Part shown: piece after piece, positions 2,958-26,726 of the stretch
Numbering within the stretch: the stretch's first letter is position 1
How the letters are laid out: each line of letters begins with the position of its first letter
DNA from: Alphaproteobacteria bacterium
Lineage (GTDB): Bacteria; Pseudomonadota; Alphaproteobacteria; Sphingomonadales; SMXR01
NCBI GenBank assembly: GCA_030634465.1
Contig: DAOWAS010000008.1
Span: 1-34,696 of the forward strand
Direction of reading: 5' to 3'
Length of the DNA stretch: 34,696 nt
Program-made: the position numbers and the translations under genes
Notes under the pieces: generated by a model
The model's input: only the letters and a program-made list of their open reading frames with translations
Databases searched by the model: none
What the model was told of the DNA's origin: nothing

Positions 2958-4145
2958 TTAGTAAAAAGCCTGAATACCTGTTTGCTCACGGCCTAATATC
3001 AGCGCATGAATATCGTGGGTACCTTCATATGTATTCACGGTTTCCAAATTCATCATATGGCGAATAACATGGAACTCGTCGTTAATACCGTTGCCACCAT
3101 GCATGTCGCGCGACATACGGGCAATATCTAACATTTTGCCGCAGTTATTGCGTTTTAATAATGAAATACCAGCTGGTGCCAGTTTGCCCTCATCCTTCAA
3201 GCGACCTGCTTGCAAACAAGCGTGTAGCCCAAGGGTTATTTCGGTTTGCATGTCTGCTAGTTTTTTCTGCACCAACTGGTTGGCGGCTAATGGACGGTCA
3301 AACTGTTTACGGTCTAAGGTATATTGTAGCGACGCGTGCCAGCAAAACTCAGCAGCACCAAGAACACCCCACGCAATGCCAAAACGAGCATTATTCAAAC
3401 AACCAAACGGCCCACCAAGACCTTTGGCATCGGGCAACATGTTTTCATCAGGCACGAACACATCGTCCATAACCACTTCGCCAGTAATAGAGGCACGAAG
3501 CGAAAACTTACCTTCAATTTTAGGGGTGGAAAGCCCCTTCATGCCGCGTTCTAAAATAAAGCCACGAATAATGCCATCATCGTCCTTGGCCCAAATAACC
3601 ATTACATGGGCAATGGGTGAATTTGATATCCACATTTTGGCACCATTCATAATATAACCACCATCAACCTTTTTGGCGCGGGTGGTCATAGAGGCAGGGT
3701 CAGAACCTGAATTTGGCTCTGTTAGTCCAAAGCAACCTATCATCTCGCCAGTAGCCATTTTAGGCAGATATTTTTGCCGTTGCTCTTCAGAGCCATAAGC
3801 ATAAATAGGATACATGGAAAGCGAGCTTTGCACCGACATGGCAGAGCGATAACCACTGTCTACGCGCTCTAACTCACGGGTGATAAGGCCATAACCAACT
3901 GAGCTAATGCCCGCACAGCCATAGCCCTCTAGCGTACAGCCCAAAAAGCCCTGCTCGCCCATTTCCAACATAATGTCAGGGTCAAAGTGCTCGACGCGGT
4001 TAGCCTCAATAACACGTGGCATCAACTTGTCTTGTGCATAGGCATGCGCACTGTCACGAATTAGACGCTCCTCTTCATTTAAACAATCATTAAACTGAAG
4101 TGGGTCTTGCCAATTAAACTTGGGCCATTTTGTTGCTTTGCTCAC
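2958..4145 (-). CDS. gcdH: Glutaryl-CoA dehydrogenase
   Basis: FAD enzyme that oxidises and decarboxylates glutaryl-CoA to crotonyl-CoA in lysine, tryptophan and aromatic degradation. The 395-residue length matches the family. [12 protein letters not shown] (flavin and substrate binding) and [18 protein letters not shown] are diagnostic. [16 protein letters not shown] near the C-terminus holds the expected catalytic Glu at about 374. The start is GTG, preceded by AAGGGAGAAAATC, which is a strong ribosome-binding site. The gene stands alone, with a candidate RNA gene or leader upstream ending in a strong terminator (4213-4252). Electrons would pass to ETF. Confidence 0.95.
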
Positions 4146-4212
4146 GATTTTCTCCCTTAACTTTCAACCAACAATTAGCGGTTTCAAGAGCATATTGCAA
4201 TGGACAAAAAAA

Positions 4213-4252
4213 TGGGCAAAAAAAAGCGGTAATTCAAAAAAGAATTACCGCT
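4213..4252 (-). terminator. Strong intrinsic terminator upstream of gcdH
   Basis: A perfect 11-bp stem (AGCGGTAATTC at 4225-4235 and GAATTACCGCT at 4242-4252) with a 6-nt loop. On the minus strand it is followed by a run of eight T, and by a second T-run about ten bases further on. This is a textbook rho-independent terminator for minus-strand transcription. It lies 67 bp before the gcdH start and about 250 bp after the aminotransferase stop. Confidence 0.85.
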
Positions 4253-4428
4253 GAAGTTTGTATGTATCAAAGCAATCAGGCATCGCCCAGACACATATTT
4301 ATTACGTTTGTTGATCGTTCTGGAATGAATTTGCGAAATCGCTGACCAACGCCTATATAATTGCAAAAGCCTTGCCAACTTTTAAAATGCTTTAAAATCA
4401 ACATGTTAGTGAAATAGCGCGTTAGAGC
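4225..4428 (-). ncRNA. Candidate small RNA (or transcribed leader) between aminotransferase and gcdH
   Basis: The 359-bp gap at 4146-4504 has no convincing gene. On the minus strand it holds an extended -10 promoter element, TGCTATAAT, with the hexamer at 4435-4440. The intrinsic terminator lies about 200 nt downstream. A transcript from about 4428 to the terminator would be roughly 200 nt. The 64-residue frame inside it (4184-4378) lacks a ribosome-binding site and runs through the terminator, so it is unlikely to be coding. I do not recognise the RNA family. The alternative is a long 3' untranslated region of the aminotransferase gene, or a regulated leader of gcdH. Confidence 0.35.
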
Positions 4429-4434
4429 TGTACC

Positions 4435-4440
4435 ATTATA
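4435..4440 (-). promoter_or_regulatory. Extended -10 promoter element
   Basis: The minus strand reads TGCTATAAT, a consensus extended -10. Upstream, TTACGG at 4456-4461 is only a poor -35 with a 15-bp spacer, as expected for an extended -10 promoter. It would drive the candidate RNA that ends at the terminator before gcdH. The call is from sequence only. Confidence 0.4.
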
Positions 4441-4504
4441 GCACAAAATATTGCCCCGTAATGATACAGTTTGTAAATTTGCACCAATTTCAGACAGTTA
4501 TATT

Positions 4505-5659
4505 TCAAGATTTAGATAAAGCCTTACCCAGAGCCATTTTCAGGTTCTCAATATCCTTATCATCATTATAAACATGGGGAGCAATTCTTAGTGCCTTGCC
4601 CCTAACGCTAAGGCGAACGCCTTCTTCCCGCAGGGTAGCTACAAAAGCAGGTGACAATTCATTGTCGCTTTCTACACCTAAAATATGTGCGGTTTGTTCG
4701 GGGGCATAACAACCCCTAAAACCCACATCTGCAAAAATATCTCTTATGGTTTTATTTTTTTCTTTTATGGTTTCAGCAATGTTTTCCACACCCCAAGACA
4801 ATATTTGTTTTACAGATTGCTCAGCCTGAAGCATTAGTGAAAAATTAGCCCGCTCACCCACATCAAAACGGCGCGCACCTGCGGCATATTCATCAACATA
4901 ATCAACCAGACCTGCGAAGTTCTCACTGCCCTTCCTATTTATCCAGTTTTCTTCTAGAGGAACCCCATTTTGGTGACGCGGAGCCACATATAAAAAACCA
5001 GTACTATAGGGTGAAAACAACCACTTATAGGCCGCCACCGCTACATAATCGGCATCCACATCCTTAACCGAAAATGGCATAGCCCCAACCGACTGGGTCA
5101 GATCCAAAACCAAAAGTGCGCCAATATTTTTTGCTTTTTTAGAAATTGCCACTAAGTCAATTACACCGCCATCAGCCCAATGCACCGCAGGCAATGCCAG
5201 CAAACCTAGTTTTTCACCACGAGTTTCGATCTCAGCTAATATGGCATTGGTCCATGTGTCAGTTTTTGGTCGCTTAACTTCTATGATCTCTAAGCCCTGT
5301 TCGTCAGCCATGCGCCGCCATGAATAAATGTTGGATGGAAACTGGTCTTCCACCACCAAAATCTCCTGCCCCGCTTCCAGCTTTATATTGCGAGCGGCAG
5401 TGGCAATGCCATAACTGGCGGCGGGCGACATTGCTATGTCATTTGCATTGGCATCAATCAGTTCAGCATACAGGGCTCTAACCCGCTCAACATCAGTGAA
5501 AAAGCCCCCCTCTGTCACCTGCCAAGGTTGGGCGCGCAGGGCAATGCCATCATCACCCGCTGCGATCATGTCTATGGTTTGCGGGGTCATAAAAGCGGCG
5601 TTTAAATAGCAAATATCCCTAGGAAGAGAAAATAAATGTCTTTGTGATGAAATTATCAT
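4505..5659 (-). CDS. Class V aminotransferase-fold PLP enzyme
   Basis: A 384-residue PLP-dependent enzyme of the class V fold, related to cysteine desulfurases, kynureninase and isopenicillin-N epimerase-like proteins. LLVLDLTQSVGAMPF carries the Asp that contacts the PLP pyridine nitrogen. VAVAAYKWLFSPYSTGFLYV carries the Schiff-base Lys in the family's typical YKW context. There is no Cys loop typical of SufS or IscS, so desulfurase activity is unlikely. I chose the ATG at 5659, preceded by GCGGGGG. An upstream ATG at 5692 has no ribosome-binding site. It is divergent from the reductase gene at 5748. The substrate is unknown. Confidence 0.8.
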   Translation of the reverse strand: MIISSQRHLFSLPRDICYLNAAFMTPQTIDMIAAGDDGIALRAQPWQVTEGGFFTDVERVRALYAELIDANANDIAMSPAASYGIATAARNIKLEAGQEILVVEDQFPSNIYSWRRMADEQGLEIIEVKRPKTDTWTNAILAEIETRGEKLGLLALPAVHWADGGVIDLVAISKKAKNIGALLVLDLTQSVGAMPFSVKDVDADYVAVAAYKWLFSPYSTGFLYVAPRHQNGVPLEENWINRKGSENFAGLVDYVDEYAAGARRFDVGERANFSLMLQAEQSVKQILSWGVENIAETIKEKNKTIRDIFADVGFRGCYAPEQTAHILGVESDNELSPAFVATLREEGVRLSVRGKALRIAPHVYNDDKDIENLKMALGKALSKS

Positions 5660-16780: not shown

Positions 16781-17149
16781 TTAATTACTAGATGTGGATG
16801 AGCTTGTGGTTGCAGTTGTCGTTGTAGTTGTAGTTGTTGGTATTAATATTGTACCTGATGGCAAGTCACTAATTTTACTGCCGTCTGTTGCTGTCTCTAA
16901 AATAACTGCAGCCAGACCACCTACCACTAAACCAGCAACTACAACCTTTGTGGCAAGTCCGTAACCACCAGACCTGTTTGCCACTAATGAAGCATGCATG
17001 CCAGCAGGCCTTGCTTGTGATTGCGCACCAGAACCTGTTGTAGTTTCCGTTGTTTCACTACCTGATGTGCCCTCATCTGATTGCGCCATCAAATAGCTTG
17101 GCTGCAAAAACAAACAGGTGATAAGAGCAAAGAGAAACTTTTTATACAT
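16781..17149 (-). CDS. Small secreted Thr-rich protein, YjbE/GfcA-like (copy 2)
   Basis: About 122 residues. A signal peptide (YKKFLFALITCLFLQPSYLMAQ) is followed by a Thr/Ser/Gly-rich stretch, a hydrophobic Gly/Val/Ala segment (VVVAGLVVGGLAAVILE) and a tail dominated by Thr and Ser (TTTTTTTTATTSSSTSS). The layout matches that of E. coli YjbE and GfcA, small secreted Thr-rich proteins encoded beside YjbF/GfcB lipoproteins in exopolysaccharide or group 4 capsule operons. It is a diverged paralogue of the gene at 17377-17697. An in-frame GTG at 17161 is an alternative start. The function of the family is unknown. Confidence 0.6.
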   Translation of the reverse strand: MYKKFLFALITCLFLQPSYLMAQSDEGTSGSETTETTTGSGAQSQARPAGMHASLVANRSGGYGLATKVVVAGLVVGGLAAVILETATDGSKISDLPSGTILIPTTTTTTTTATTSSSTSSN

Positions 17150-17328
17150 GGGTAAAATCACTTCATTATTAGCGTTTATTATTCAACACACATCAAATAG
17201 CCAAAGTAAATAAACATAGAAATATGACTAAATAGTGTTGGGCTTAATCTAACCAAGTGGTTTATTAGCCCGAACCAAATGCTTAATCAAGAAAATATAG
17301 AAAACAAGCTTGCTTACAACAAAAGAGC

Positions 17329-17376: not shown

Positions 17377-17697
17377 TCAAGTACCAGTACCAGTCGCTGT
17401 TGATGTAGAAGTACTTGTTGATGTAGTTGTAGATGTTCCTGTTGGTTCATCTGGAGTTGGAGTAGGAGCAGGTACGTCTTTGTTCCCACTTGAACCCGCC
17501 TCAATAATTACTGCAATCATTGTCGCAGCAACGATACCGCCAACTACTATTGCAGAAACACCTGTACCACCTGCAGAACCTGAAGCTGAACCACCTGCAG
17601 CACTACCAGTAGTAGTGTCTTGTGCTGATGCAAATGTTGGAGCTAAAGCCATGCCAGCCACTACCAAAGCTGTTAATACTAAATTAGATTTTTGCAT
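17377..17697 (-). CDS. Small secreted Thr/Ser-rich protein, YjbE/GfcA-like (copy 1)
   Basis: A 106-residue protein with a clear Sec signal peptide (cut near FASAQ-DTT). It continues with a Gly/Ser/Ala linker, a hydrophobic GGIVAATMIAVIIEAG segment, a Pro-rich hinge (APTPTPDEP) and a tail of alternating Ser and Thr. This is the same architecture as copy 2 at 16781-17149 and as E. coli YjbE/GfcA. AAAGG lies eight bases before the ATG. It is followed by a strong terminator and is preceded by a weaker hairpin, so it is probably a single-gene transcript. Possible roles are a surface or matrix component linked to polysaccharide, by family context only. Confidence 0.62.
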   Translation of the reverse strand: MQKSNLVLTALVVAGMALAPTFASAQDTTTGSAAGGSASGSAGGTGVSAIVVGGIVAATMIAVIIEAGSSGNKDVPAPTPTPDEPTGTSTTTSTSTSTSTATGTGT

Positions 17698-19593: not shown

Positions 19594-20667
19594 TTACTTA
19601 TCGTAATTAAGAACCAAGGTTTTGCTTGTGGGGGTCGACTGGCAGGTTAGCACATAACCTGCCTCGACCTCGTCAGGCTCTAAACCATAGTTTACCGCCA
19701 TTTCGACCGAGCCTTCAATAACCTTGGCACGGCAAGTACAGCACACCCCACCACGGCATGAATATGGCACATCAGCCCCTGTTTTTGATGCCGCATCTAA
19801 AACACTGCCATCACTTGGGGCATAGCTGAATGTGCGTTCAACCCCATCCAAGGTCATGGTAATTTCACAATCGCTCGCTATTACTGCTTTTGCCGAAGCG
19901 TCATCTTGTTTGGCAACGGTTACACCGTCGGTGGTGAAAAGCTCATAATGAATTTTATCTTGTGATGCGCCACCCTCTAACAATGCCTTTTCAATATCGC
20001 CTATCATGCTGCCGGGGCCACAAATGAAATAATGCTCAACCTTGTCCGTAGCTATCATGTTTTCCATAATTTCTTTGGTTTTAGCGTAATCAACAAAGCC
20101 ATTAAAAAATTCAAACTCTTGTTTTTCCTCTGATAAAAAGTGGAAAAAGCTGAAACGGGTCATGAAACGGTTTTTTAACTGCGACAATTCTTGGCGAAAA
20201 ATTGTACTGGCGGGTGAGCGGTTGGCATAAAACAACATAAACTCACTTTCAGGCTCAACCTCCAAAGTGGTTTTAATTATGGACATAATTGGCGTAATGC
20301 CACTGCCGCCAGCAAATGCCACATATGTTTTCTTATTCTTGCCACCAAGCTCAACAAAAAAATGCCCCGATGGTGGGAACACATCAATTGTATCGCCAAC
20401 TTTCAGGTCATTATTGATAAAACCTGACATGCGACCACCCTCAACCGCACGCACAGCAACACGCAATTTGTCCTCAGCCACACTTGAACAGATAGAATAT
20501 GAACGTCTGATATCTTCACCACCAATGTCTGCACGCACGCTAACATGTTGCCCTTGGGTATATTTAAACATGTCTTTCAGGTCATCTGGCACAGCGAAAG
20601 TAAGCGAAACACAATCATCTGTTTCTTTATCTATATTGCTAACCGTTAGGGCGTGAAACTTACTCAT
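19594..20667 (-). CDS. paaE: Phenylacetyl-CoA epoxidase reductase subunit PaaE
   Basis: A 357-residue flavo-iron-sulfur reductase that feeds electrons from NADPH to the PaaABC(D) epoxidase. It has an FAD-binding FNR domain (RRSYSICSS), an NAD(P)-binding domain (FAGGSGITPIMSII, then YFICGPGSMI) and a C-terminal plant-type [2Fe-2S] ferredoxin domain with PYSCRGGVCCTCRAK and a final LTCQS supplying the Cys ligands. It is the last gene of paaABCDE. The ATG at 20667 lies behind AGGAAT, and a longer open frame would overlap paaD. Confidence 0.95.
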   Translation of the reverse strand: MSKFHALTVSNIDKETDDCVSLTFAVPDDLKDMFKYTQGQHVSVRADIGGEDIRRSYSICSSVAEDKLRVAVRAVEGGRMSGFINNDLKVGDTIDVFPPSGHFFVELGGKNKKTYVAFAGGSGITPIMSIIKTTLEVEPESEFMLFYANRSPASTIFRQELSQLKNRFMTRFSFFHFLSEEKQEFEFFNGFVDYAKTKEIMENMIATDKVEHYFICGPGSMIGDIEKALLEGGASQDKIHYELFTTDGVTVAKQDDASAKAVIASDCEITMTLDGVERTFSYAPSDGSVLDAASKTGADVPYSCRGGVCCTCRAKVIEGSVEMAVNYGLEPDEVEAGYVLTCQSTPTSKTLVLNYDK

Positions 20668-20689
20668 ATTTTTATTCCTGATATCTTGG

Positions 20690-21202
20690 TTAAATACATT
20701 TGAAATAATCAAACGGCTCCAAACAGCTTTCACACTTATAAAGTGCCTTGCACGCTGTTGAGCCAAACTCGCTTACTTTTACTGTTTTTTCAGAGCCACA
20801 TTGCGGACAGGCAATTGTAGGATCAATTCCCATAATTGACGCTTTGCTGGTGGATGAATGTAGCGGTGGGCTAATGCCATAAGCACGTAGCTTATCTTTA
20901 CCCTCGTCACTCATCCAATCAGTTGTCCACGGCGGGCTAAGTTGGGTTTTAATGGTTACTTTGCTCGCCCCTGCCATAAGCAAGGCCTCACGAACATTGT
21001 CTTCAATTAGCTTGGTTGCGGGGCAACCTGTGTATGTGGGGGTTAATGCCACCTCTAATGCGCCACCATCACTAAGCTTCAAGTCACGCACCAAACCTAA
21101 ATCAAGCACACTAAGCACTGGCACTTCGGGGTCTAAAACCGCCTCAAGTGCGCGCCAATATTTGGCTGTGTCTTCATTTTCGTTATGTGCTTGCTTGCTC
21201 AT
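20690..21202 (-). CDS. paaD: Phenylacetyl-CoA epoxidase assembly subunit PaaD
   Basis: A 170-residue protein needed for activity of the epoxidase complex, related to MIP18/SufT-like factors. The N-terminal DUF59 domain has LDPEVPVLSVLDLGLVRD and YTGCPAT. The C-terminus has a zinc-ribbon (CPQCGS ... CKALYKCESC), which is typical of PaaD. It starts 3 bp after the paaC stop, so the two are transcribed together. Confidence 0.93.
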   Translation of the reverse strand: MSKQAHNENEDTAKYWRALEAVLDPEVPVLSVLDLGLVRDLKLSDGGALEVALTPTYTGCPATKLIEDNVREALLMAGASKVTIKTQLSPPWTTDWMSDEGKDKLRAYGISPPLHSSTSKASIMGIDPTIACPQCGSEKTVKVSEFGSTACKALYKCESCLEPFDYFKCI

Positions 21203-21205
21203 GGC

Positions 21206-21961
21206 TTACCATTTTGCCCCTGGGTATGCCCGTTGCAAAAACTGCATTTCTGATAGGATATGCCCTAAATGCTCAGAATGATGCCCTTTGAAACGCCCCA
21301 TAATCATGGCTTGGCTTGGTGGTTTTATCAGCCCTGCCTCAACTAAAATCGCGTCAATTTCAGCGTTCCACGGTGCTTCTAAACTGGCGGCATCAACGGC
21401 AATGCCAGCCTCGCACAGGCGTTTTTCACCGTCAGACATGGCGAACAGCTCGCCAGTGAAACGCCACATGTCTTCTAAGCCTTTTTGCACATATGCTTTG
21501 CTTTCATCTGTGCCGTCGCCAAGGCGCAACATCCACTCCGAGGAAAAGCGCTTATGGTACAGCACTTCTTTAATGGCCTTGCCCGCAATGGCTGACAACT
21601 GCTCGTCTTTCGAGTTTTGCAATTGCTCTAAATACAGCGCCATGAAAGTTGAATATAGGAACAGGCGAACCGTGGTTCTGCCCCAGTTTTTATTGGGCTG
21701 TTCTAGCAACAGATAATTTCTAAATTTTAGACAGTCGCGCAAATATGCCAAATCGTCTGCTGACTTACCCTCACCCTCAACCTCAGCGGCGTAATCTAAA
21801 TATAACTGCGCCTCACCTATCAGGTCTAACGACAGGTTAGTTACAGCAATGTCTAGCTCTAACGCGGGGGAGTGTCCGCACCATTCAGCCAAGCGCTGCC
21901 CTAAAATTAAAGCATTGTCGCCCAAGCTAAGGGCATATTCATATAAGTCTTTATTACTCAT
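21206..21961 (-). CDS. paaC: Phenylacetyl-CoA epoxidase structural subunit PaaC
   Basis: A 251-residue ferritin-like protein without a working di-iron site, which pairs with the catalytic subunit PaaA. Recognisable family phrases are LGDNALILGQRLAEWCGHSPALELDIAVTNLSLDLIGEAQ, VLYHKRFSSEWMLRLGDGT and GRFKGHHSEHLGHILSEMQ. AAGGG lies before the ATG. It is 9 bp after paaB. Confidence 0.95.
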   Translation of the reverse strand: MSNKDLYEYALSLGDNALILGQRLAEWCGHSPALELDIAVTNLSLDLIGEAQLYLDYAAEVEGEGKSADDLAYLRDCLKFRNYLLLEQPNKNWGRTTVRLFLYSTFMALYLEQLQNSKDEQLSAIAGKAIKEVLYHKRFSSEWMLRLGDGTDESKAYVQKGLEDMWRFTGELFAMSDGEKRLCEAGIAVDAASLEAPWNAEIDAILVEAGLIKPPSQAMIMGRFKGHHSEHLGHILSEMQFLQRAYPGAKW

Positions 21962-21970
21962 GGGTAACCC

Positions 21971-22258
21971 TTACATGTTTTCAATATTGTCTGGAACTTT
22001 GTAAAAAGTGGGGTGGCGGTAAACCTTGTCACGAGCAGGCTCGAACAAATGCTCCATATCGCCCGGGTCTGATGCCACTATTGATTTTGACGGCACAACC
22101 CAAAGGCTAACCCCCTCCATACGGCGGGTGTACAAATCCCTAGCGTTTTCTATGGCCATTTCGGCATCGGTGGCATGCACACTGCCAACGTGTTTGTGTG
22201 ACAGGCCATTTTTTGAACGGATAAATATTTCAAATAAATCCCAATTACCTTTGCTCAT
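21971..22258 (-). CDS. paaB: Phenylacetyl-CoA epoxidase subunit PaaB
   Basis: A 95-residue subunit that holds the epoxidase assembly together. It begins KGNWDLFEIFIRSKNGLSHKHVGSVHA and contains ENARDLYTRR and VSLWVVPSKSI, which are characteristic of PaaB. The in-frame TTG at 22276 is unlikely to be the start, because AGGAG lies just before the ATG at 22258. The gene sits between paaA and paaC. Confidence 0.95.
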   Translation of the reverse strand: MSKGNWDLFEIFIRSKNGLSHKHVGSVHATDAEMAIENARDLYTRRMEGVSLWVVPSKSIVASDPGDMEHLFEPARDKVYRHPTFYKVPDNIENM

Positions 22259-22282
22259 AATAACTCCTCTTGCCAACCTGCT

Positions 22283-23299
22283 TTATGCGGCGGCGTGTTT
22301 TGCTTTTTGTTTTTCTGCATATGCCTCTGCGGCTTCGCGCACCCACGCGCCGTCAGCGTAAGCCTCAACCCGTGCGTCTAACCGATCGCGGTTACAATGC
22401 CCTTCACCCTTAACCACTGACCAAAACTCGTCCCAGTTCAGATCACCAATTTCATAATGACCAGTCACCTCGTTAAAGCCCAGATCGGGATCAGGCATGG
22501 TCAGGCCAATGGCCTCAGCCTGCGGCACTGTGGCGTCAATAAAACGCTGACGCAGTTCGTCGTTTGAAAAACGCTTGATCTTCCATGCCATTGACTGTGC
22601 TGAGTTTGGACTATCACCATCAGGCGGGCCAAACATCATAAGCGAAGGCCACCACCAACGGTTCATGGCATCTTGCGCCATTTCACGTTGTTCGGCATTG
22701 CCTTCCATCATTACGGTCATAATTTCAAACCCTTGACGTTGATGGAAACTTTCTTCCTTACACACCTTCACCATGGCGCGTGCATATGGGCCGTATGAAC
22801 AACGGCAAAGCGGAATTTGGTTTGTTACCGCCGCACCATCAACCAACCAACCAATGGCACCAATGTCTGCCCATGTCAGGGTTGGGTAGTTGAAAATAGT
22901 TGAATATTTTGCCTTGCCAGTGTGCAACTGCTCTAACAAATCGCCACGCTCAACACCCAGAGTTTCCGCCGCGCTATAAAGGTACAGCCCATGTCCTGCT
23001 TCGTCTTGTACTTTGGCTAGCAATATCAGCTTGCGGCGCAAGCTTGGTGCGCGGCTAATCCAGTTACCCTCAGGCAACATGCCAACAATTTCCGAATGGG
23101 CGTGCTGTGAAATTTGCCTAACCAAAGTTTTACGATACGGTTCTGGCATCCAGTCTTTTGGTTCGATAAATTGCTCATCATCAATGCGGGCTTGGAAGCG
23201 AGCTTCATTTTCACTGGCCTCAACAATTTCGTCTTTGGCACCAGTGTCTTTGGCATCAGCTGCTTTTTGCGCTTTGGTGCGTAGGTCGGTGGTGTACAT
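22283..23299 (-). CDS. paaA: Phenylacetyl-CoA epoxidase catalytic subunit PaaA
   Basis: A 338-residue catalytic subunit with a carboxylate-bridged di-iron centre that forms 2-(1,2-epoxy-cyclohexadienyl)acetyl-CoA. Helical metal-binding signatures are visible, including [18 protein letters not shown] (ExxH) and a later [13 protein letters not shown] (ExxH). It is the first gene of the operon. The leader is about 100 nt long and repetitive, and a TetR-type palindrome overlaps the predicted -35. The phenylacetate-CoA ligase PaaK and the downstream ring-opening genes are not in this window. Confidence 0.96.
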
Positions 23300-23536: not shown

Positions 23537-24076
23537 ATGTTCAAATGGTTCAATAAAATTAAGCGAAAAAATAAGAAGTTTACAAACCCTACAGGCGGGG
23601 TTGTGCGCAACGACAACTATGGTTTTGGGCATTTTGGCGCACCACGCACTAGCAACTCTAGTAATAGGAAAACCCACAATGGTACAGACTATCTGGCTGA
23701 AGCAGACCAAGAGGTGCGCGCCTGCATTTCAGGCAAGGTTAGTAAAATTGGCTACCCTTATGCTAGCGACCTGCAATATCGCTATGTTGAGATAACCAAT
23801 GATGATGGCTATTCAGTGCGCCACTTTTATGTTTTTCCTGCCAGCGACATAGATGTTGGTACAAAGGTTAAACAAGGGCAAGCCATAGGCCAATGCCAAA
23901 ACCTGGCCAAAAAATATCGTGGTATGAAAAACCATGTTCATGTGGAAATTAAAAAAGATGGCGAACTGTTAAATCCTGAAGGTTTGATAAATAATTATAT
24001 ACTGTCCCCAGATACCCTGAAAGGCAATCACAATCTACAAAATCAGATTAAGAAGAAATACGTCCCTCACAAATAA
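23537..24076 (+). CDS. M23-family peptidase without signal peptide; C-terminus lies in an inverted repeat
   Basis: A 179-residue protein with the LytM/lysostaphin-type zinc site: His47 and Asp51 in HNGTD, and His133-x-His135 in NHVHVE. His96 in SVRHFYVFP matches the position of the usual extra His. The catalytic site therefore looks complete. The N-terminus is short and strongly basic (FKWFNKIKRKNKK), without a hydrophobic signal. Residues from about 152 to the stop are encoded by the 23-bp repeat at 23992-24014 and the following bases, so the original C-terminus may have been replaced by insertion. AGGTG precedes the ATG. The gene overlaps the convergent HNH gene by 29 bp. Confidence 0.75.
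   Translation: MFKWFNKIKRKNKKFTNPTGGVVRNDNYGFGHFGAPRTSNSSNRKTHNGTDYLAEADQEVRACISGKVSKIGYPYASDLQYRYVEITNDDGYSVRHFYVFPASDIDVGTKVKQGQAIGQCQNLAKKYRGMKNHVHVEIKKDGELLNPEGLINNYILSPDTLKGNHNLQNQIKKKYVPHK
23992..24014 (+). repeat. Left copy of a perfect 23-bp inverted repeat
   Basis: Begins TAATTATATACTGTCCC and ends CCAGATA. It is identical to the reverse complement of 25438-25460. Together the two copies bracket a 1,469-bp segment holding only the HNH gene. It lies in the 3' coding part of the M23 gene. Perfect pairing over 23 bp, including the GC-rich core CTGTCCCCAG, is not expected by chance in this short span. Confidence 0.85.
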
Positions 24077-25337
24077 CTTTCATGGCATCTTCACTTATTT
24101 TTCTATTCAATCTTTCACTAATTGCACACTGGTGAGATAACTTATTTAACGATACAAACCAAGTATCTAGCAAATCCTTCATCAACTCTCCGTTCATAGC
24201 TACTTTTTTATGCTCTATTGTTTTTCCTTCGCATAAAATAGCCACCAAGACCTTTAACCATTGGCCACCCTCACTTTGTAAAAACATCCAATATGGAAAC
24301 AACTTATTTAAATTATTAAAATAACTTATTACTTCAGAAATTTCATATAGCTCTCGGGGATCATCATCATACCCATCAACCATAAATTCTATTTTTTGCA
24401 TATAACCTAAAGTAACTTCTCGACAGCTAATAATATTGTTAAGGAATTGTAATATTTCTGAAGTATTTCCAGATTCTATATCTTCCCTAGGTATAGAGTA
24501 TAGAACGAGGCCGAATTCTTTATTCACAATTGCTGAGCTAATATTATCAAAGGGAATGTCATATGTAATAGGGTTATTATACATATGTACTGCAAAGGAA
24601 GAGTATGCATCTAATACTGGTGCTGGAAATATTACTCTTCCGCTATTTTCCAATTTCACACCGTAAGTATTTGCTTTTTTAATAGCCTCAATTAATTTAC
24701 TTTCTTCATAAGAATCCTCATGCTTCAATTTTGGTATAAACATAAAAAATGAATATGAGTTTATTGTTACATGGCGATAAACCCAATTCTGACTATCAAA
24801 TTCAGGAACTCTAAAAACACCAATCCTAAACCAATCAGGCGCATATAACTCACAATTTTCATGCCGAGATGCCAGTGTAATATTCTCGTAGTCATTAATA
24901 TTCGAGGGTGAAATCAAGCCACAATAAACAATTATATTCTCAGGAAGCTCTCGATCTTCAATAAGATATTTTCCATAATCATTTAAAACCTCTAAATCTG
25001 CTTTATTTACTCTCGCTGAATTATAAGATAATTTTATCAGCCATTTACATAGAAGATCATAATTGTATCGCAGATCAATAGTTTCATCTTTAAAAACATG
25101 TTCTATGAAAAAATCATTATACAATGACTTACCGTATGCATCTAAAGCAGATAGCTTTATGTTATTACACTCCGCACAAACATCCTTAATAACTGAGTCA
25201 GTACTTAAAAATTTTCTTGGTACTATTTCTGAAAACTGGATATCATCTGGTGACGGATTTATATTTAGAAACCAGTTTGGAATTATATGTTCCCGCGTCA
25301 ACTTTTTATTCTTTTTACAATATGAACATACCCTCAT
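24048..25337 (-). CDS. AT-rich HNH-type protein in an inverted-repeat-bounded island
   Basis: A 429-residue protein with an N-terminal HNH/zinc-binding site: Cys4-x2-Cys7, Glu16-His17 with Pro20 in EHIIPNWF, and Cys54-x2-Cys57-Asn58 in CAECNN. This is the pattern of standalone HNH endonucleases. The rest (about 360 residues) I do not recognise; it has several aromatic-rich segments. The base composition is clearly more AT-rich than that of neighbouring genes, suggesting recent transfer. It is the only gene between the two 23-bp repeats. It may be a homing, mobile or defence nuclease. There is no transposase beside it. Confidence 0.7.
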   Translation of the reverse strand: MRVCSYCKKNKKLTREHIIPNWFLNINPSPDDIQFSEIVPRKFLSTDSVIKDVCAECNNIKLSALDAYGKSLYNDFFIEHVFKDETIDLRYNYDLLCKWLIKLSYNSARVNKADLEVLNDYGKYLIEDRELPENIIVYCGLISPSNINDYENITLASRHENCELYAPDWFRIGVFRVPEFDSQNWVYRHVTINSYSFFMFIPKLKHEDSYEESKLIEAIKKANTYGVKLENSGRVIFPAPVLDAYSSFAVHMYNNPITYDIPFDNISSAIVNKEFGLVLYSIPREDIESGNTSEILQFLNNIISCREVTLGYMQKIEFMVDGYDDDPRELYEISEVISYFNNLNKLFPYWMFLQSEGGQWLKVLVAILCEGKTIEHKKVAMNGELMKDLLDTWFVSLNKLSHQCAISERLNRKISEDAMKVICEGRISS

Positions 25338-25619
25338 AACTATACCCCTTAATTAACATTAGGTATAATTCTCTATCCGCATGTCAGTTTAGTCAATTTT
25401 AATCGCATTGTGTTTACTTCGGCCTGTATCTGGGAGATATCTGGGGACAGTATATAATTAACCCAACTCATAAAGCCCTGACAACAAAAAACACCTTTAC
25501 ACACCCTACCATCAATTGCGACTAAGACTTATTAGCAACAAGTAATGGGGGATGGGTGGCTTTGACAGGATGGTTAGATGGAAAGAGAGAGGGTAAAAAT
25601 TGCACTTAACTAAAATCGA
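25338..25619. other. Non-coding stretch with the right inverted repeat
   Basis: A 282-bp gap between the HNH and hotdog-like genes. Besides the right repeat copy and an adjoining second copy of ATCTGGGA (25429-25436), I see no gene, terminator or RNA. Confidence 0.5.
25438..25460 (-). repeat. Right copy of the perfect 23-bp inverted repeat
   Basis: Exact reverse complement of 23992-24014. Just outside the core the motif ATCTGGGA is repeated, giving tatctggga-gatatctgggga. No target-site duplication is apparent in the flanks (left ...GATAAA, right ACCCAA...). Confidence 0.85.

Positions 25620-26351: not shown

Positions 26352-26354
<3 letters not shown>
26345..26354 (-). terminator. T-run at the rnpB 3' end
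   Basis: Eight T on the minus strand (26352-26345) immediately after the P1 helix, which can itself serve as the terminator stem. Confidence 0.55.

Positions 26355-26726
<372 letters not shown>

Follow-up and report, generated by a model that had tools for sequence, protein, structure and literature searches.

A candidate passenger-gene unit with TIRYT-type ends at the 3' end of an alphaproteobacterial M23 metallopeptidase gene

The REP and TIR repeats of Y1 transposases are usually seen as tiny movers that mobilise only themselves. TIRYT genes have been defined as flanked by inverted repeats, many of which carry the motif GGGGWSAS (Di Nocera et al. 2013, PMC3733652), and most of them have been placed in subclass 2.1 of TnpA-Y1 (Quentin et al. 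2018, PMC6006769); REP transposases cut and rejoin single strands beside the repeat (PMC8266576). Mobile insertion cassettes such as MIC231 and mic-qnrD, the latter a 1,519-bp cassette with 24-bp repeats, bring a passenger and no transposase, and those cited in PMC3913671 have ends of the IS231 type or of an unidentified kind. Here we describe a unit found in a stretch of 34,696 nucleotides from an alphaproteobacterium (assembly GCA_030634465.1, contig DAOWAS010000008.1; hereafter the window), which resembles the mobile insertion cassettes in its size of ~1.5 kb, its inverted repeats of about 24 bp, its passenger and its lack of a transposase, but which has ends of the TIRYT/REP type. A passenger gene between TIRYT-type arms appears to be a new combination, and the unit, of which a single copy is known, would work, if mobile as we suppose, in the manner of a mobile insertion cassette.

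A sequence-only reading of the window had pointed to exact 23-bp inverted repeats around one foreign-looking gene, and both observations were borne out (Table 1). The two arms are exact reverse complements of each other and form the longest separated perfect inverted repeat of the window, as compared with a maximum of 19 bp (median ~15) in 40 Markov-randomised windows. They bracket 1,469 bp with a single substantial ORF and a G+C content of 32.0%, versus 44.8% for the rest of the window, where no other stretch of that length falls below 35.9% (n = 152, mean 44.8, sd 2.6). In the 2.16-Mb assembly (160 contigs, 95.8% complete), the two arms are the only exact occurrences of the 15-bp core of the repeat; a 12-bp core with 1 mismatch allowed gave 6 matches, both arms included, versus 8 for the control, which is background only, and there is no second copy of the unit in the genome. 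Across genomes, the conserved part of the repeat is TATACTGTCCCC followed by a short tag, which is AGATA in the window. As the TAATTA next to each core is its own reverse complement, repeat arm and duplicated target are not separable there, and target duplications of 0, 2 or 6 bp are all compatible with these flanks; AT-rich bases inside TATA are frequent in repeat copies elsewhere (AAATTA in G709, for example).

Table 1. Features of the M23/HNH locus, in window coordinates.
Feature	Position	Strand	Remarks
M23 metallopeptidase ORF	23537..23997 (frame runs on, stop at 24076)	+	homologue's end corresponds to codon 151-152
Left inverted repeat TAATTATATACTGTCCCCAGATA	23992..24014	+	conserved core 23998-24014; AGATA side towards the HNH gene, i.e. 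inward
TAATTA beside left core	23992..23997		palindromic; repeat arm or possible target duplication
429-aa passenger protein	24048..25337	-	HNH_5-like N-terminal half (~1-230) and Crr6/DUF1817-like C-terminal half (~277-422)
Weak sigma-70-like promoter match TTGACT-17-GAGAAT	25368..25396	-	within the unit, 5' of the HNH gene; based on consensus alone
Right inverted repeat	25438..25460	-	exact reverse complement of left arm; tag duplicated on AGATA side (CCCCAGATATCTCCCAGATA)
TAATTA beside right core	25455..25460		second copy of the left-side TAATTA

The unit sits on the stop codon of the M23 gene, whose reading frame continues across the left repeat and into the inserted unit, the original stop being displaced. 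The best family relative of the M23 protein (41% identity over 144 positions) ends in ...VDPTTLIP*, one residue past the last aligned residue of the window protein, which continues from ...LNPEGLINN into the repeat. When the unit is removed and the flanks are joined under models with a 6-, 2- or 0-bp duplication, the protein ends as ...PEGLINN* (153 aa) or ...PEGLINNYN* (155 aa); the empty site predicted by the 6-bp model is GGTTTGATAAATAATTAACCC, and the 2-bp and no-duplication joins are closely similar. The extra 24 to 26 residues, which overlap the 3' end of the HNH gene, are most simply read as translation through into inserted DNA, and no other direct evidence speaks as strongly for an insertion. 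The interrupted M23 tail, together with the TIRYT/REP type of the ends described below, also supports the earlier proposal of a small, mobile-looking unit with a foreign passenger and devoid of a transposase. The repeat is absent from family-level relatives of the source organism, to which the locus is not common, and their homologues of M23 and its flanks are too distant for an empty-site comparison.

The first 230 residues of the passenger protein match HNH_5 weakly (E 1e-4, under Pfam's cut-off), share 27-33% identity with stand-alone proteins of ~250 aa and keep the CxxC/EH/CxxCNN residues, those invariant including C4, C7, E16, H17, C54, C57, N58, N59 and D66. The C-terminal half matches Crr6/DUF1817 with a Pfam E of 0.004 and is resembled by separate 'chlororespiratory reduction 6' genes of plasmids (E down to 8e-16). 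Since no protein in plasmid records covers 80% of the 429-aa protein, the HNH-Crr6 fusion looks rare. Relatives of the HNH half were found on plasmids, in one genome (G386) directly behind a gene reading as alaS, and on a Vibrio alginolyticus plasmid, where the relative is a cassette in an integron-like array with attC-like repeats every ~0.4-1.3 kb, copies of which flank it on both sides (3871-4003 and ~4776-4928 of locus L016). None of the relatives found carries the unit's repeat. Searches of genomes and viral contigs with degenerate patterns confirmed no relative of the HNH protein, and none was found in phages; PADLOC gave no match, a PDB search gave nothing significant, and an AlphaFold model made without an alignment reached a pLDDT of 33. 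A ribosome-binding-like AAGGGG precedes the ATG of the gene; the sigma-70-like consensus search behind the promoter match of Table 1 found fewer sites than in shuffles. With relatives of its HNH half found in settings typical of cargo, the protein, a putative nuclease encoded by a foreign AT-rich gene, is probably a passenger rather than a mobility enzyme.

The exact 17-mer TATACTGTCCCCAGATA was scanned over 84,980 genomes (257 Gb). The 28 loci recovered are about the number expected by chance in 257 Gb, so that only paired, tandem or transposase-linked loci, approximately half of them, count. Among these, (i) a Y1_Tnp gene lies directly between two copies of the 17-mer in L034, L052 and L057, the latter two from one genome (Pfam searches covered L034 and L052, with L057 almost a duplicate of the latter), (ii) tail-to-tail dimers of the repeat are present in L032, L035, L039, L045, L048, L058 and L059, and (iii) tandem copies are present in L044 and L056. 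Furthermore, both arms contain GGGGACAG, which fits the published TIRYT consensus GGGGWSAS, and the right arm of the window shows the repetition of the tag just outside the core that 10 of 50 copies of the family have. Judged by these matches to TIRYT ends and REPIN-like dimers of other proteobacteria, the arms belong to the TIRYT/REP repeat family. The likeness to REP-like ends that had been proposed for them stood, while the conserved core had to be corrected to the one given above and the outer TAATTA proved ambiguous. The same dimers occur with other tags in other alphaproteobacteria, and two of them form strong single-strand folds (z -6 and -13). Dimers such as those of L085-L092 differ from copy to copy in the tag that follows the core; within a dimer, both arms mostly share a tag in inverted form, and the tag is often tandemly repeated outward, a pattern that may reflect how the elements insert.

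In the TIRYT elements, or TIRtrons, of L034, L052 and L057, the Y1_Tnp gene has the 17-mer on either side. The unit has an HNH passenger in place of a Y1/HUH transposase, and its motif points inward instead of outward; without a transposase and in the opposite orientation, it does not qualify as a TIRtron. In the three TIRYT loci and in the dimers the tag side is turned outward, whereas around the HNH gene it is turned inward. Close pairs in other loci (n = 26) comprised 17 tail-to-tail, 9 direct and no head-to-head arrangements, all 17 inverted pairs facing outward, and no head-to-head close pair was found in 2.9 million viral contigs. REPINs and TIR dimers share with the unit the repeat core, the tag and an AT-rich side next to TATA; REPINs, however, are 60-80 bp long, tail-to-tail and strongly folding, whereas the arms of the unit are solo copies, head-to-head and 1.42 kb apart, and its single ends form no hairpin. 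Compared with autonomous elements, the ends of the unit match TIRYT in sequence and not in orientation, while one IS3 element, L040, partly matches in both.

The closest parallel to the window unit is a Kordiimonadales S139_36 MAG of the same order (G091), where all 10 copies of the repeat (<=2 mismatches) fall within three contigs and single genes, among them those for a DUF547 protein and a lipoprotein-like protein, lie between inward-facing copies. Some array edges consist of half-dimers, and at two loci a stretch of 192 bp, made up of a cassette end and a dimer, recurs with 97% identity. Both genomes have the 17-mer, its inward orientation and a single gene of lower G+C content in between, but the Kordiimonadales cassettes have full dimers between the genes, IS30 remnants inside and unrelated passengers. 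As fragments of an IS30 transposase C-terminus open two of the cassettes, these are mosaics and not a clean proof of gene mobility. No Y1_Tnp was detected in this assembly, which is incomplete. The three clusters (L032, L039 and L045), with their repeat dimers, IS30 remnants and single genes, may represent a gene-cassette array. IS30 was considered as the owner of the repeat, because its C-terminal fragments adjoin the repeat there, and was rejected as IS30 relatives end in ATTCAACxxATAAGTGCAACGC-like sequences. An integron-like attC reading of the Kordiimonadales dimers was likewise rejected, as they disagree with it in both box order and bases; by eye, neither these dimers nor the arms of the unit conform to RYYYAAC...GTTRRRY.

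We prefer, and give an even chance to, a reading in which the passenger gene arrived by horizontal transfer within a non-autonomous unit that has TIRYT-type ends and was mobilised in trans. Two solo arms from the REP/TIR family of Y1/HUH tyrosine transposases bracket, facing inward, an HNH-Crr6 gene with its own ribosome-binding site; a trans-acting transposase, most likely of the TIRYT kind, would cut at or beside both arms; and the unit would be joined into the AT-rich 3' end of the M23 gene in place of the stop codon. Mobilisation in trans had been suggested from the sequence alone, and this presumed mode fits the absence of any Y1 transposase (PF01797) from the source genome (G000), as far as the incomplete assembly reaches. 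As no Y1_Tnp is detectable in this genome or in the Kordiimonadales MAG, the mobilising enzyme may have come and gone, may lie in missing sequence or may belong to another family; it is from the type of the arms that we infer TIRYT-driven movement. Several points count against the preferred reading, namely the orientation opposite to that of TIRYT elements and REPINs, the ends without a hairpin, the absence of Y1_Tnp from both incomplete assemblies, the single copy of the unit, the overlap of any target duplication with a palindromic arm, the inward pairs around apparently ordinary genes (a phosphate transporter-like gene in L041 and a peptidase gene in L059) and the IS30 remnants of the Kordiimonadales cassettes; the last two imply that an inward arrangement need not mean gene mobility. 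As to an invertible segment, the ORFs adjoining the unit include no recognisable recombinase.

The main rival, which we regard as possible and clearly less probable, is that the arms are passive flanks: in a donor genome rich in the repeat, REP/TIR copies would have inserted independently into the intergenic gaps on either side of the HNH gene, and the whole REP-HNH-REP segment, without being transposable itself, would have arrived by another route (recombination, phage or plasmid). Inward copies 0.7-1.7 kb apart around single genes at other repeat loci, L041 and L059 included, speak for such an origin, as does the orientation of the arms, away from the side on which transposases and dimer spacers are found. 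It is weakened by the identity of the arms over 23 bp, their position exactly at the unit borders with the left one on the M23 stop, and the lack of any further repeat copy in the genome; nor are homologous flanks known that could have guided recombination.

Instead of a TIRYT-type enzyme, a DDE transposase might have mobilised the unit as a mobile insertion cassette, a reading that we hold to be unlikely. It stays among the rivals because of L040 (positions 3544-4896, from a Sulfurospirillum MAG), an IS3-family ISAba14-like element with inward-facing ends TATACTGTCCC, the transposase of which is bracketed by the 13-bp inverted repeat AATATACTGTCCC that shares the core and is oriented as in the window; the 17-mer lies at its left end, and its ends almost equal TIRYT ends. 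The similar size and make-up of mic-qnrD (PMC3913671) also fit. Against this, the two ends of L040 are imperfect and have no subterminal sequence in common with the window, the 3-bp target duplications of the IS3 type seen in two relatives are absent at the unit, where only 2 or 6 bp are possible, and the duplicated tag of the right arm is a trait of the REP/TIRYT copies.

It is very improbable that the arms are the halves of one palindrome (TATACTGTCCCCAGATATCTGGGGACAGTATA) behind the M23 gene with the HNH gene inserted into its loop, for although the would-be palindrome centre AGATATCT is found at the right arm, its bases are accounted for by the usual tag duplication of the family, and head-to-head close pairs number none of 26 in the other loci and none in the viral contigs. 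The further suggestion of the sequence-only reading, that the HNH protein itself moves the unit by homing or transposition, found the least favour and is hardly credible: it draws on the protein being the only substantial gene product of the unit and on its conserved HNH_5-like residues, whereas its relatives are stand-alone cargo with no tie to the repeat. Homing is not known to create terminal inverted repeats, which we also count against it.

That such ends enclose the gene of a putative nuclease in a 1.47-kb unit suggests that REP/TIR repeats can also carry genes, which would give the widespread domesticated Y1 transposases a role in horizontal gene transfer. A more far-reaching and quite unlikely possibility is that solo Y1/HUH-associated arms are recombination half-sites which circulate single passenger genes among alphaproteobacteria, as cassettes with inward-facing ends that form dimer-joined arrays in Kordiimonadales S139_36 and single insertions between half-sites here, and which would constitute a second, integrase-free gene-cassette system.

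Elsewhere in the window, the M23/HNH locus is directly adjoined by a phenylacetyl-CoA epoxidase (paa) cluster (19594-23299, minus strand), PaaA having been assigned by TIGR02156 and the other members by sequence reading only. A complete class A RNase P RNA gene (Rfam RF00010, 325 bits) occupies 26352-26723 on the minus strand. On the same strand, 16781-17161 and 17377-17697 encode adjacent small, secreted-looking proteins, probably paralogues, whose Thr/Ser-rich tails derive from repeats with a 12-bp period.
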